Assembly: GCF_025490915.1 (NCBI RefSeq)
Contig: NZ_JANQBA010000009.1
Span: 1-64,000 of the forward strand
Length of the DNA: 64,000 nt
Source: Lacticaseibacillus parakribbianus
Lineage (GTDB): Bacteria; Bacillota; Bacilli; Lactobacillales; Lactobacillaceae
Direction: 5' to 3'
Below, one piece after another: positions 22,001-47,390 of this stretch. Positions within the stretch are counted from its first letter, which is position 1; every line of letters begins with the position of its first letter. The notes beneath the pieces were generated by a model. That model had not been told where the DNA came from and ran no database searches. It saw only the letters and a program-made list of their open reading frames with translations. Made by a program: the position numbers and the translations under genes.

Positions 22001-22405
22001 AAAAAACGTCCGGCAACGATGTACCGGACGCGCCGAAGCCACCGTGGGTCCTAGAACCCCGGCAGCCTCGGTATTTTTGCTGCTTCGTTGCAATCTTGCG
22101 GTGTTGACCTCGCAGTGGTGCTGCGTTCAAGGCCGCTTGAAACAAGCCACGCGCCGAGCCCCTCCGCAGCTACCTCGCAAGCGAGTAGGAGAGACAGTCA
22201 GACTGCGCGTGGGTGTTGGCGTTCACCCTGGTATTCGGGCCCAGCGAGGGGCGCCGTAACGCGAAAACACGTGTGTTGAAAGCCAGGTTCGGCTTGGTAT
22301 GGGCGGGGGTACTGGAGATGCTTATGCTCCGGCCATTCCCTCTGGGGCAGTGGACGCGCAACGACCAAGGCCTTTGGCCGCCTCCCTGTCCTAGAATAAT
22401 CATCC
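22001..22405 (-). ncRNA. unidentified structured RNA, about 405 nt
   Basis: No credible reading frame covers this stretch, yet it has a complete transcription unit on the minus strand: promoter at 22412-22440, and a terminator at 22000-22031 (CGTCCGG / CCGGACG then TTTTTT). The predicted transcript contains many hairpins: GGCC-AAA-GGCC, AAGCC..GGCUU, AACAC..GUGUU, GGGUG..CACCC, CUCGC-UU-GCGAG within a longer stem, CUUG-UUU-CAAG and GCAG..CUGC. Long-range pairs GCCCCUC/GAGGGGC and CCACGCGC/GCGCGUGG are also possible. None of the signatures of RNase P RNA, tmRNA or SRP RNA is present. Identity unknown. Confidence 0.65.
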
Positions 22406-22411
22406 ACAATC

Positions 22412-22440
22412 AGTGTAAGCCCCGTTATTTCAACCGTCAA
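22412..22440 (-). promoter_or_regulatory. promoter of the 22-kb structured RNA
   Basis: On the minus strand TTGACG (22435-22440), 17 bp, TACACT (22412-22417). It lies downstream of the terminator of the neighbouring gene, so the RNA is an independent unit. Confidence 0.75.
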
Positions 22441-22464
22441 ATTTTGAGCTCGCCCAGGCGGCAT

Positions 22465-43467: not shown

Positions 43468-45138
43468 TCAGCCGCGCAGCAACAAGTCGTAGCGAATGCC
43501 TTGCGGATAGGCCCGCCACAGCAGCCAGCCGATCAAGGCGAACACCACGGCCAGCCCCAGGTCGAACCAGACGGTGAAAAGGAGCCCCCCGGCCACGACG
43601 ATCGCCATCATGATGATCATCCCGACCAAAACCGCGCCGACGCCGACGATGCCGTTGGTCGCCCCTTTTTGCGCGGTGAACTCGCTTGAAAACGGCAGGG
43701 TGCGGCCGACAATCATGCGCCCGAACAACAGCGCAAACATCCAAGTCATCGCCACCGTCAACACCCCGGCCGACAGCGCGTGAACGCCGGTGAACGGCAC
43801 GAAGACCACCAGCCACAAAAGCTCAAAGGGCAAAATCAGCTTGGCAAACAGCGCGGTGATCACGCCGCGCAGCAGCAGCCCGTGCGTGGCGAACGGCACG
43901 GTGCGAAAGATGCCCATCGCCTCGGGCTGGTGTGAAAACGACAGGTTGACGATCGCCGTCGGCAGCGCGATCACCAGGCCGATGCCCAGGTACGGCAGGA
44001 AATGGAGGATGGCCAGGTGATTGGCGCCGCGCAACAGCCCCGCCCCCAAGATCACCGGGATCATGAAGCCGTAAGCCAGCTGCGGGTAAACGCGCAGCTT
44101 GAAGTCGCGCTCGTATTGCATCATGCGCCAGCCCAGGGTGAAGTAGGTGGCCTCGGCGCCGCGGGTGGTCAACAGCCGCCTGGTGGTGGTGAACCACCAG
44201 GAGTGCTTGCGGTTTTGATTCGAGCTTTGCTCCAGTTTCTCAAGCGACTGCTCGAACTGCGCAGCGTGAGTGAAGTAGGCCGCGACCAAGGCCGCGGTGA
44301 CCCCCACCGCCAGGCCGGTCAACACCAGACTGACGGGCTTGAACACGCCGTCAAACAGCAGCGCCGGTCCGGCGAACCACACCGGGGCGGCCGGCACGTA
44401 CCACCACAAGAGGCGCGTCGGCATCGCCAGGTCGATTTTGGCCATGGTGTCGACGCCGACCAAGTTGGGCAGCTGACTGGCCGCGTACATCAAGACGATC
44501 AGCCCGATCTGCACGACGTTCAAGATGTTGCGCAGCCGCTCGCCGTCAAAGAAGCGCAGCACCAGTAGGTACAAAAACAGCGACAAGACAAAGGCGAACA
44601 CGGCCAGCATCACCGCGCCAAGCGCCGCGCCGACCAACACCAGCGGCCCGTGCTGCAGCGTCAGCACCACCAAGCTTGGCACCGCCAGCGCCACCAGCGT
44701 CACCGCCAGGAAGAACACGACCACCGCCAACCGCGCGGCATTGAGCGTCCGGTCGGCCACCCCCCGCACCGCAAAGATGCGCCGGTCCCGCGGATCCAAG
44801 ATCAGGCTGGAGTAGCCCGACAGCATTTGAAGGAAAAACATCACAAACAGCGTGGTGTAAAACGCGGTCAACTGCGTCATCAAGGGCAGCGGCAAAAACA
44901 GCGTGACGCCGATCACCACCCCGATCAGCAGGTTCAACAAGAAGGTGTTGCGCAACCCGTGATCCGGCGCGTCCGCCTTCTTCTTGCGGTAGGACACGCC
45001 GATGCCGCTTTTGCTGCGGGCGGCCAGCTTGAACTTGGCCGAGACGATCAGCGCGAACTGCTCGAAGTCGACCCCGCCGGCCGTGAGCGGCTTGCGCAGC
45101 GCGGTCAAAAAGCCCAATCCGCGTGGTAGCTCACTCAT
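43468..45138 (-). CDS. ABC transporter permease
   Basis: 556 residues with about twelve hydrophobic segments, arranged as two halves separated by a charged loop (EQSLEKLEQSSNQNRKHSWWF, about residue 305). No ATPase motif. Starts 8 bp inside the end of the ATPase gene, so the two form one exporter. Long ABC-2-like permeases of this shape occur in lactobacilli; the cargo is unknown. The neighbouring promoter carries a palindrome suggesting control by a repressor encoded elsewhere. Confidence 0.82.
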   Translation of the reverse strand: MSELPRGLGFLTALRKPLTAGGVDFEQFALIVSAKFKLAARSKSGIGVSYRKKKADAPDHGLRNTFLLNLLIGVVIGVTLFLPLPLMTQLTAFYTTLFVMFFLQMLSGYSSLILDPRDRRIFAVRGVADRTLNAARLAVVVFFLAVTLVALAVPSLVVLTLQHGPLVLVGAALGAVMLAVFAFVLSLFLYLLVLRFFDGERLRNILNVVQIGLIVLMYAASQLPNLVGVDTMAKIDLAMPTRLLWWYVPAAPVWFAGPALLFDGVFKPVSLVLTGLAVGVTAALVAAYFTHAAQFEQSLEKLEQSSNQNRKHSWWFTTTRRLLTTRGAEATYFTLGWRMMQYERDFKLRVYPQLAYGFMIPVILGAGLLRGANHLAILHFLPYLGIGLVIALPTAIVNLSFSHQPEAMGIFRTVPFATHGLLLRGVITALFAKLILPFELLWLVVFVPFTGVHALSAGVLTVAMTWMFALLFGRMIVGRTLPFSSEFTAQKGATNGIVGVGAVLVGMIIMMAIVVAGGLLFTVWFDLGLAVVFALIGWLLWRAYPQGIRYDLLLRG

Positions 45139-45916
45139 GGCCGACCCCTCCCGTCACGATGTCGACGAAGGCCTTGGCCTTTTCGCCGTGCTCGGCAAAG
45201 CCGGTCAGCTCGTTGAACAGCTCCTGCAGGTTGGTGTCGGCGCCGTTGGTGATCGCGCTGAAGGTCCCATCCGCCTGCACCTGCCCGTCGTTGAGCAAGA
45301 TGATGCGATCGGAGAGCTTTTGCACCACGTCCATGATGTGGCTGGAGTAAAAAATCGTCTTGCCGCGTTTTTTCAACTCGACCAAGATCTCCTCGATCAC
45401 CAGCACGGTGTTGGCGTCCAGCCCGTTGAGCGGCTCGTCCCAAAACAAGACGTCCGGGTCGTGCAAGAGGCTGGCGATGATCAACACCAGCTGGCGCATC
45501 CCCTTGGAGTAGGCGGTGATGCGCCGATCAAGCGCCGGGGCCAGGCCGACGATGCCGGCCAGGGCCACCGCTTTGTCCTCAGCGTCCTGCTCGCTCAGCC
45601 CGTACAGCTGGCCGATCAAGGTCAGGTACTCCCGCGCGGTCAAGGCATCGAACACGTCGGCGCTTTCCGGCACGTAGCCAATGTGCTGCTTGTAGCTGGG
45701 GTCATCCGGCCGCACCGGCTGGCCCATCAGCTCGATGGTGCCGGCGTCTTGGGTCAACAGGCCCAAGATAATCTTGACCGTCGTGCTTTTGCCCGCGCCG
45801 TTGGGGCCGATGTAGCCGACGATGGTGCCGGGTTCGATCGAAAACGAAACGTCCTTGAGTACCTGCTTGGCGCCGAATGATTTTTGAACATTGGTCAATG
45901 CAATCGCAACTGCCAT
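45131..45916 (-). CDS. ABC transporter ATP-binding protein
   Basis: 261 residues. Walker A GPNGAGKST near residue 40, Q loop YVPESADVFDALTAREYL, signature KGMRQLVLIIASLL (the usual LSGGQ is replaced by YSKGMRQ, as in CcmA/NatA-type ATPases), Walker B DVLFWDEPLNGLD and the H-loop histidine in FYSSHIMD. GGGAGG before the ATG. Pairs with the overlapping permease gene. Confidence 0.93.
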   Translation of the reverse strand: MAVAIALTNVQKSFGAKQVLKDVSFSIEPGTIVGYIGPNGAGKSTTVKIILGLLTQDAGTIELMGQPVRPDDPSYKQHIGYVPESADVFDALTAREYLTLIGQLYGLSEQDAEDKAVALAGIVGLAPALDRRITAYSKGMRQLVLIIASLLHDPDVLFWDEPLNGLDANTVLVIEEILVELKKRGKTIFYSSHIMDVVQKLSDRIILLNDGQVQADGTFSAITNGADTNLQELFNELTGFAEHGEKAKAFVDIVTGGVGHE

Positions 45917-46012
45917 GGTGTGCCTCCCTTTGCGGTCATCCCGCGGATACGCCAACTATACCCTAATTGAGGTCAAGCGCAAGCGCGAGGCTTGTGTTCG
46001 ATTCCACAAGGC

Positions 46013-46049
46013 AGTATACCCGTGGCCTGGTACTTTGTAAAGCAAAGTA
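46013..46049 (-). promoter_or_regulatory. promoter and operator of the ABC exporter operon
   Basis: On the minus strand TTTACA (46036-46041), 17 bp, TATACT (46013-46018). TACTTTG-TAAAG-CAAAGTA (46031-46049) is a perfect inverted repeat over the -35. Confidence 0.72.
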
Positions 46050-46074
46050 TGCGACCATCATCGGCACCAACGCG

Positions 46075-46130
46075 CAAAAAAACGCACCAAATCCGGCGCG
46101 GGGAAGCCCCGTACCGGACCTGATGCGTTG
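46075..46130 (-). terminator. terminator of the 46-kb structured RNA
   Basis: On the minus strand AACGCATCAGGTCCGG pairs with CCGGATTTGGTGCGTT around an inner CGGGG..CCCCG hairpin; seven T follow. Confidence 0.85.
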
Positions 46131-46605
46131 GGTGGTGCTACCGGCCAATCGTCGGCGGCCGGACCGCGGCCTGCCCCGCCTGCCGGGCGTCGGCCCACGG
46201 TGGGCGAAACGCTAAGCGTCGGTACAGGCGTGCGGTCGGGTCAACCACAACTGACCCAATACTGCCGGTGGTGCAAGGACGCGGCCTGTTGCCAGCACAC
46301 ACCACCCGGAACCGCCGGGCGACTTGCGGTGTGAGCGTGCTGGCCGGTGCGCGTGCCGGCCGTCTCTTGCGTCCGCAGCTGGCTCCGAGGAGTAGGACGC
46401 AAGGCGTGCGGCGACCGGGTCGAGAATCCGCTACCCTTAATGATTCCCGTCGGCGACTCGGCGGGTTCCGCTAATTCCATCAATGGAAGGGCTGGTGAAG
46501 CCTGGTCTGGGTGAGGCGACGTGGCGCTTGCCACCGGATCGTCTGCCGAAGTCCGCGGATTGCATCGACAACGCGTTTGCCGAACCACGGGCCTGATGTC
46601 CATCT
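46075..46605 (-). ncRNA. unidentified structured RNA, about 530 nt
   Basis: No credible reading frame. On the minus strand it has a strong promoter (46612-46640) and a long terminator (46075-46130). The predicted transcript contains CUUGCGUCC..GGACGCAAG (perfect, 46366-46403) enclosing CUCC-UC-GGAG, UUCCAU-UG-AUGGAA, GUGGC..GCCAC, GCCGG..CCGGC, GGGUCA..UGACCC, CCCA..UGGG and CGCU-U-AGCG. It lacks the conserved GAGGAAAGUC of RNase P RNA, the tmRNA ends and the SRP domain IV. Identity unknown. Confidence 0.68.
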
Positions 46606-46611
46606 GAGGCT

Positions 46612-46640
46612 ATCGTAACAGCTGCTGTGCTGGCCGTCAA
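46612..46640 (-). promoter_or_regulatory. promoter of the 46-kb structured RNA
   Basis: On the minus strand TTGACG (46635-46640), 17 bp, TACGAT (46612-46617). Confidence 0.78.
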
Positions 46641-46655
46641 TTTATCAGCTCGCAA

Positions 46656-47390
46656 TCAGCGCTGAGCGGTGAATTCCTGCTTCGTGCCCAAAAACGCCAC
46701 CGCCGCAAGTGTCTGGTCGTCGACGCTCAACGTGCCTTGCTGCCAGTACTCGGCCTGCTTGGGCCGGCTGCCGCCGATGGCAAGCCGGGGCCCCGGCACC
46801 GCCGCCACGGCCCGCAACACCCGGGGGCTTGCCATCACCAGGCAGGTTTTGCCGGTGGCGGCCTTGATCAGCGCGATGAAGCGCGTCAAGGCGGCGACAA
46901 GCTGCGCCTTAGCCGGCGGCCGGGCGGCGTAATCCCCGTAGTAGGTTAGGTAAACACCGATCGGCAAGCTCCCCCAGTCGCGCTTGGTCTGCTTGAGAAA
47001 CTGCTGGGCCTGGGCGTCCGGCGGTGAGTCGAAGCTGAAGTAGTGGTAGACGCCGATGCGCAGCTGGGCGCCGACGCTTCTGTCGTAATTGACGGTGAAG
47101 GCGTCGTCGAAGTAGCTGGCGCCTTGCGTGGCCTTGAGGTAGGCGAAGCCGACCCCGGCGTCTTGCAGCGCCGCAAAGTCTTGGTAGCCATCGTCGGCGT
47201 CGAGCATCACCCCTTGCACCGCCCCGCCTTGCGCCTGGTGGGTCGGCCAGTGCCGCACCCCCCACCAGGCGCCAAGCGCCACGAGCATCAAGGCGACCAA
47301 GATCAGGCTGCCGCGGATGCGGCGGTGTTTTTTATCGTATGTGTCTGCGTAGATCGGCCGCTTCCCTGCGATGGTGCTCACCTCCGTCAT
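46656..47390 (-). CDS. GH25 muramidase-like membrane protein, catalytic acids missing
   Basis: About 244 residues or slightly fewer. One membrane anchor (LILVALMLVALGAWWGV, near 30-46), then a GH25 lysozyme-like domain: VMLDADDGYQDFAAL, GVGFAYLKATQGASYFDDAF and GVYHYFSFDSPPDAQAQQFL. Active GH25 enzymes have LPP-V-DxE at the next strand; here it reads LPIGVYLTYYGD, so Asp and Glu are replaced by Tyr and Thr. Hydrolysis of peptidoglycan is unlikely; a binding role is possible. The start is unclear: the ATG at 47390 lies directly after a TATAAT, while GGAGGTGA lies ahead of an ATC codon at 47370-47372. Confidence 0.72.
   Translation of the reverse strand: MTEVSTIAGKRPIYADTYDKKHRRIRGSLILVALMLVALGAWWGVRHWPTHQAQGGAVQGVMLDADDGYQDFAALQDAGVGFAYLKATQGASYFDDAFTVNYDRSVGAQLRIGVYHYFSFDSPPDAQAQQFLKQTKRDWGSLPIGVYLTYYGDYAARPPAKAQLVAALTRFIALIKAATGKTCLVMASPRVLRAVAAVPGPRLAIGGSRPKQAEYWQQGTLSVDDQTLAAVAFLGTKQEFTAQR

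Follow-up and report, generated by a model that had tools for sequence, protein, structure and literature searches.

The RNA gene at about 46 kb in the stretch of Lacticaseibacillus parakribbianus DNA analysed here (contig NZ_JANQBA010000009.1, positions 1 to 64,000; hereafter the window) almost certainly belongs to a family of structured, non-coding RNAs that is present in many copies and whose members range in length from about 430 to 650 nt. Sequence comparison confirms some 60 related RNA genes in this genome (G000), and the family was found in this genome and in one close relative, Lacticaseibacillus kribbianus YH-lac21 (G011). The first-pass annotation had read the region as the gene of a structured RNA spanning about 530 nt, with a promoter and a terminator, and the comparison of copies supports this; it had also called this RNA an orphan, a description that must be dropped for one of about 60 paralogues. 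RNA families of this kind are known in outline; this one is absent from Rfam, narrowly distributed, present in very high copy number and evenly spaced.

The 46-kb RNA (type A, about 530 nt) lies on the minus strand at 46076–46605, with its start placed from the −10 element. Its promoter (46612–46652, minus strand) comprises a box, CGAGCTGATAAA (46652–46641), the −35 hexamer TTGACG (46640–46635), a 17-nt spacer and the −10 hexamer TACGAT (46617–46612), and the box with its −35 hexamer is also found in other copies. The promoter named at first pass, TTGACG-17-TACGAT, is thus present at 46640–46612. The 5′ domain (46435–46609) is homologous to that of a second RNA at about 22 kb, as judged by the covariance models R1 and R2 described below. 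It precedes a signature domain (46361–46407), in which the previously noted 9-bp helix CUUGCGUCC/GGACGCAAG encloses an inner stem, UACUCC..GGAG. The long terminator claimed earlier corresponds to the hairpin AACGCAUCAGGUCCGG..CCGGAUUUGGUGCGUUUUUUU (46076–46129), which is closed by seven T at 46082–46076 of the minus strand and ends at 46076; the 3′ ends of types A, B, and C are alike. Upstream lies a glycosyl hydrolase family 25 gene (46656–47390) and downstream an ABC transporter gene (45131–45955), both on the minus strand. A palindrome like TACTTTGTAAAGCAAAGTA, perhaps the operator of a PadR-type regulator, is located at 46031–46049, past the terminator and ahead of the next gene, and also occurs downstream of the RNA at loci L004, L009, and L011. 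The folding energy of the region (z-score of −2.65 on the RNA strand and −1.94 on the opposite strand) is by itself modest evidence for an RNA, and it is comparison that decides.

Consistent with the earlier statement that no known RNA signature is seen, the Rfam covariance search gave no family match for the 46-kb RNA. At the gathering score, the sole match in the whole window was a tRNA elsewhere, and a search of 45950–46720 at E up to 5 returned weak unrelated matches, the best being Yfr1, whose 23.1 bits (E 0.034) fall short of the gathering score of 38. Four further family loci (L085, L086, L089, and L005), scanned at E up to 1, gave three weak unrelated matches. OLE, ROOL, and GOLLD had no Rfam match in the window, in 45950–46720 or in these four loci at the same thresholds, and HEARO/omega RNA and group II introns had none in the window and in 45950–46720. 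The 46-kb RNA also matched neither the Rfam models nor ARAGORN for RNase P RNA, tmRNA, 6S RNA, and SRP RNA; the RNase P RNA of this genome sits at another place. Protein coding was likewise rejected: an open frame of 120 codons in the 46-kb copy has no Pfam match, and the longest frames are not conserved, as they vary among copies in position and in size, with L125 having no more than 16 codons. None of the outcomes that the first-pass annotation had named as counting against its proposal, namely a known family, a lack of conservation or a decayed gene, was found, as a second species has the family and no frame is conserved.

The copies can be grouped into several types. Type A comprises the window copy and L004; type B comprises L006, L008, L010, and L012 together with pieces at contig ends; and five L. 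kribbianus copies make up type C. Type D, of about 430 nt, includes the 22-kb RNA and was seen at loci found by a relaxed search for the promoter box, as was later type E; diverged type D copies are also present in L. kribbianus. A DNA search of 30 genomes of the genus with the 46-kb RNA gave matches in two, with one further place at 98% identity and four at 72–73% over about 215 nt in L. parakribbianus, and five places, one of them split in two pieces, in L. kribbianus. Covariance models reached much further. Model R1, for which 17 5′ domains of type D and no type A, B, or C sequence were used, identified 52 places in L. parakribbianus and 13 in L. kribbianus, where four were type C; the other 28 genomes of the genus gave none, at up to 88 candidates per genome. 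Applied to individual loci, it recovered each of the 11 complete copies of types A, B, and C included there (E no higher than 0.0013) and gave no match in the contig-end pieces L014 and L015 or in L090. Model R2, derived from types D and E, recovered these 11 as well, with E-values from 2e-10 to 1e-4 and the weakest match for type A. A pattern for the 9-bp-helix domain fits every copy scanned but L007. Model R3, a 49-nt model of this domain from 45 distinct copies of all types, found 59 places in L. parakribbianus, 13 in L. kribbianus and none in the 28 other genus genomes at E up to 0.05 (up to 150 candidates per genome), where the E-values of all models are rough, R3 was trained on the same copies and weak relatives could escape the candidate filters.

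Beyond the genus, R3 matched these same two genomes out of 397 in the family (15 candidates per genome scored, strict filters). R2, run over 251 family genomes with 10 candidates per genome and strict filters, found L. parakribbianus alone among the matches listed, with L. kribbianus outside the rows listed. The true copy number in L. parakribbianus may be slightly higher than counted, because several contigs end in or next to family copies (C3, C4, C5, C12, and C32, the start of C6, and the end of C14) and the repeats probably broke the draft assembly. At L278:15891–15968 (C28, about 155.9 kb), an 83-bp type B-like terminator with 73% identity follows a promoter-like sequence and is perhaps a shortened relative.

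A search of genome contigs with the type A–C pattern gave 20 stretches, five of which belong to L. kribbianus; the remaining 15 are spread over scattered taxa and were taken as chance. The phage and plasmid collections gave no match for the 46-kb or the 22-kb RNA, and three pattern searches of viral contigs yielded 0, 7, and 2 matches. R3 weakly matches two of these nine loci (L298 and L299, E 0.003) and R2 none; they were taken as chance, and L298 reads by eye as protein-coding. In 275 kb sampled from the near relative G007, there was a single R2 match at E 0.76. This genome carries dispersed palindromic repeats of 120–315 bp near genes (L233:11458–11777, L236:15800–16118, L237:1913–2219, and L237:15958–16424), which have no R2 match; they represent another class of repeat that may be comparable with cruciform supermotifs. 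A second G007 repeat of about 220 bp and 88% identity (L231:9851–10073 and L235:2148–2365) ends in a terminator-like GTCTCAGCC with a T-run and looks, from its sequence, like another RNA gene.

Compensatory changes across the copies indicate that the structural core of the RNA has been kept. In the signature domain, 88.4% of 585 alignment cells from the 45 distinct copies pair, compared with 66.4% after shuffling (0 of 500 shuffles reached the observed value) and 37–43% with the partners slid, figures in which related copies are not independent and the structure, drawn from the same alignment, has an advantage over slid versions. Eight of the nine pairs of the outer helix, the one singled out at first pass, have changed on both sides. 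In the 5′ domain, to which the caution about related copies applies as well, 97.4% of cells pair against 82.2% in shuffles (0 of 500) and 16 of 27 pairs are two-sided, a number reached by 7 of 500 shuffles. Two covariation measures are not decisive: the two-sided count of nine in the signature domain, which 34 of 500 shuffles reached, and the further pair types in the 5′ domain, whose observed value was reached by 402 of 500.

The 22-kb RNA (type D, about 405 nt; 22001–22405, minus strand) is, by this comparison, a relative of the 46-kb RNA. Its promoter (22412–22452) contains the box CGAGCTCAAAAT, the −35 hexamer TTGACG, a 17-nt spacer and the −10 hexamer TACACT, and is followed by a 5′ domain (22226–22409), a signature domain (22152–22200) and a terminator (22001–22029), all on the minus strand. 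R1 matches the 46-kb RNA at 46435–46609 with 32.0 bits (E 4.9e-7), although it was built without types A, B, and C; R2 matches the same 5′ domain with 22 bits (E 1e-4), and R3 matches the signature domain with 34.1 bits (E 6.4e-6), the 46-kb sequence being part of its training set. The kinship that had been raised as a question is therefore borne out by the common promoter box, 5′ domain and 9-bp-helix domain, whereas the weak shared element put forward for it, CCCACCGUGGG / CCCACGGUGG, shows no homology by inspection.

The promoters form a second conserved feature. Copies of types A, B, and C each start at a box consisting of CGAGC and an A-rich stretch that abuts the −35 hexamer. The exact box with its −35 hexamer occurs 13 times in L. 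parakribbianus (including the 22-kb RNA, at 22436–22452), five times in L. kribbianus and in none of the remaining 28 genomes of the genus; a reversed-box control gave one match, in G020. Twelve of the 13 boxes precede a family RNA. The remaining one (C29:28324, in L123) has no family RNA behind it by R1, R2, or R3, and this kind of promoter may serve another transcript there, with box and −35 at L123:425–540 (C29, about 28.3 kb). With up to two mismatches, the L. parakribbianus genome contains 88 matches, compared with 40 in the control. Outside the RNA family, a near-identical promoter-like stretch followed by conserved sequence is found in both species at L116:484–603 and L119 (minus strand, about 1097–1216).

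The arrangement TTG[AC]C[AG]-17-T[AT]nnnT followed by the 5′ hairpin is present in 65 of 71 copies. Of the six others, four have the promoter hexamers, namely the two of type A and two of type C, with a hairpin that falls outside the search pattern; the remaining two are L182, which is cut by a contig end, and L148. Behind the conserved 3′ hairpin, a T-run was detected in 51 of 61 type D, type E, and L. kribbianus copies and was missing in 10, in a scan that is loose in both directions and picked a wrong place for L181. Judged by sequence, nearly every copy examined is preceded by a predicted vegetative-type promoter, and most are followed by a predicted terminator. The two type A copies have bodies that are 98% identical, with promoter spacers differing at about half of their positions, and type D spacers vary likewise. 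Because the bodies are far more alike than the spacers, we read the promoter elements as probably under selection and the bodies as homogenised within the genome, as in rRNA genes.

Despite bodies that look homogenised within each genome, the two species have ancestral loci in common. Six of the 14 L. kribbianus copies have flanks that clearly correspond to those of an L. parakribbianus copy (L011, L134, L136, L140, L146, and L148), and two more probably do (L009, and L007 through L068); the other six (L003, L005, L132, L138, L142, and L144) have no partner among the loci compared. The window locus is one of the clear cases, with a type A copy in L. parakribbianus, a type C copy (L011) in L. 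kribbianus and the same ABC transporter gene after both; an open frame upstream in L. kribbianus resembles the glycosyl hydrolase family 25 gene in length and start. The loci of this transporter gene in 20 other genus genomes gave no R1 match. Among the 13 with a readable layout, 11 have a frame of more than 100 codons within 300 nt upstream of the gene, and the other two (L215 and L219) have a gap of 650–695 nt.

Within L. parakribbianus, the copies are evenly spaced. The nearest neighbours on one contig are 19.1 kb apart, and 0 of 40 intervals are shorter than 19 kb, compared with 15.4 expected (0 of 20,000 simulations), under a uniform null and in a draft assembly that breaks at copies. Adding five contig-end fragments leaves the result unchanged, with 0 of 45 intervals against 18.2 expected. 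As a control, 394,595 contiguous bases were searched directly, and R3 and R2 found the same 12 copies. The next matches there were at E 0.69 (R3) and 0.0095 (R2), and BLAST gave one relative of 83 bp (C28:155.9 kb), which lies about 12.8 kb away from a copy; this R2 match and the 83-bp match are excluded from the copy count. Of 40 pairs of neighbouring copies, 29 are co-oriented (p 0.006), and in 25 of 37 cases the flanks show a positive GC skew on the strand that carries the RNA (p 0.047). In two contiguous stretches, the G-rich strand carries 10 of 12 copies, and both exceptions are type B. Candidate causes of the spacing are target immunity, the purging of close direct repeats by recombination and chromosome structure. 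An evenly spaced bacterial RNA gene family was not found in the literature searched, with queries that were not aimed at spacing and few subscription papers covered, and such spacing along a bacterial genome appears to be new.

A further feature concerns the apex of the second hairpin, which in type D is occupied at one aligned site by GGCC in 20 and by GAUC in 10 of 31 RNAs, in the contexts CGGCCG, AGGCCU, or UGAUCA; the remaining RNA, L110, carries UCCGGA in that loop. Among the 27 rows of the A3 alignment, 14 have a palindromic hexamer, seven GGCC alone and six no palindrome. These counts cover type D, and the idea of a kissing loop was formed after the data were seen; the chance of a palindrome of at least six in a random 12-mer is 11%. 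In OLE, a tetranucleotide that switches between GGCC and GAUC or AGCU has been cited in favour of a symmetric kissing loop (PMC12286853). By analogy with such homodimerising ornate RNAs, the switching palindrome may be a hint of self-assembly.

On balance, and with limited confidence, we favour the reading that the family supplies an abundant, trans-acting, self-assembling RNA. The copies would be transcribed and would together yield an abundant, stable RNA acting in trans, for which many copies would provide gene dosage, an arrangement that would fit the leading-strand tendency. Monomers would pair when the palindromic apices of their second hairpins form a symmetric kissing loop, as in OLE, ROOL, and GOLLD, and the product would be an RNA or RNA–protein particle, with the holding of a cellular component or the scaffolding of the nucleoid as favoured tasks. 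The narrow distribution argues against an essential role. To our knowledge, most large structured bacterial RNAs are without known function; here, about 60 natural variants in one genome and about 14 in the cultured L. kribbianus make structure, dosage and self-assembly directly testable.

Target immunity is known for the transposable elements Mu and Tn7, and the family could be a selfish, non-autonomous mobile element with its own promoter and terminator, whose RNA serves its spread and whose spacing reflects such immunity. We consider this unlikely, but it deserves serious attention: the copy number is high, the flanks are unrelated, type B copies lose their homology abruptly at the promoter box on one side and shortly beyond the terminator on the other, and near neighbours are missing. 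Against it stand the six to eight of 14 L. kribbianus copies at common loci and the strongly different spacers beside near-identical bodies, which are unlike block transposition; moreover, no target duplication was seen by eye at type B copies, and the phage, plasmid, and viral collections held no match. The copies could also act at the DNA level or co-transcriptionally, as evenly spaced strong transcription units or cruciform-prone DNA marking or separating nucleoid domains, with the RNA as a by-product. The lack of intervals below 19 kb and the co-stranded neighbours speak for this reading, which we nevertheless regard as improbable, since the compensatory changes are of the RNA type (G–U pairs and a branched fold), needless for a role of DNA, and recombination between close direct repeats could also give the spacing. 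A more speculative reading, to which we give little credence, is RNA-based chromosome organisation, in which some sixty evenly spaced, largely co-oriented genes would each make a kissing-loop RNA, and the nascent or released RNAs would join; if true, an RNA network would space or link nucleoid loops of about 20–50 kb. That the RNA regulates the downstream gene in cis, as a leader or attenuator, is highly improbable: the window copy precedes the ABC transporter gene in both species, but the copies have terminators and sit among many different genes, with no single gene class noticed among the neighbours looked at. Finally, a decayed protein gene, suggested by the 120-codon frame of the window copy and its modest folding z-score, is scarcely credible given the missing Pfam match, the varying frames and the extensive compensatory changes in both domains.

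Among known systems, rRNA genes are multi-copy and show concerted evolution, strong vegetative promoters and a leading-strand tendency. The present family resembles them in its copy number, apparent concerted evolution, vegetative-type promoters and leading-strand tendency, and differs in its dispersed single units and even spacing, with no sequence kinship suggested. Within the lactobacilli, large supermotifs of Lactobacillus plantarum (LPSMs) were reportedly described by Wels et al. in 2009, in J Bacteriol 191:3420. In the available part of a later account, LPSMs are large, intergenic, stable transcribed structured RNAs of 800–1000 nt, cruciform-like and present in many copies in one lactobacillus lineage (PMC5643018). 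The present RNAs are similarly multi-copy, intergenic (as judged case by case) and confined to one lineage, with 59 and 13 places in two species and none in 28 other genus genomes. By description, the sole basis of this comparison, LPSMs are longer than the RNAs of about 430–650 nt found here, which have a branched rather than cruciform-like fold; the promoter box and even spacing are features that the available LPSM descriptions do not mention (PMC5643018). The same account describes a stable 520-nt RNA of Ligilactobacillus salivarius, megaplasmid-borne and more abundant than 16S rRNA (PMC5643018), which is treated elsewhere as ROOL (PMC12286853). As far as these partial descriptions go, it is similar in size and also has a lactobacillus host, whereas the present family has many copies on chromosomal contigs and no ROOL match. 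ROOL and GOLLD are described, in the part available, as phage- or prophage-borne and often near tRNAs (PMC12286853). From what is accessible there, the present family differs from OLE, ROOL, and GOLLD in its lack of an Rfam match in the regions scanned, its roughly 60 dispersed copies and its lack of a phage match, and is like them a large ornate non-coding RNA, with a palindrome-switching loop as in OLE (PMC12286853). On these descriptions, the L. plantarum supermotifs and OLE, ROOL, and GOLLD are the closest known kinds of RNA family.
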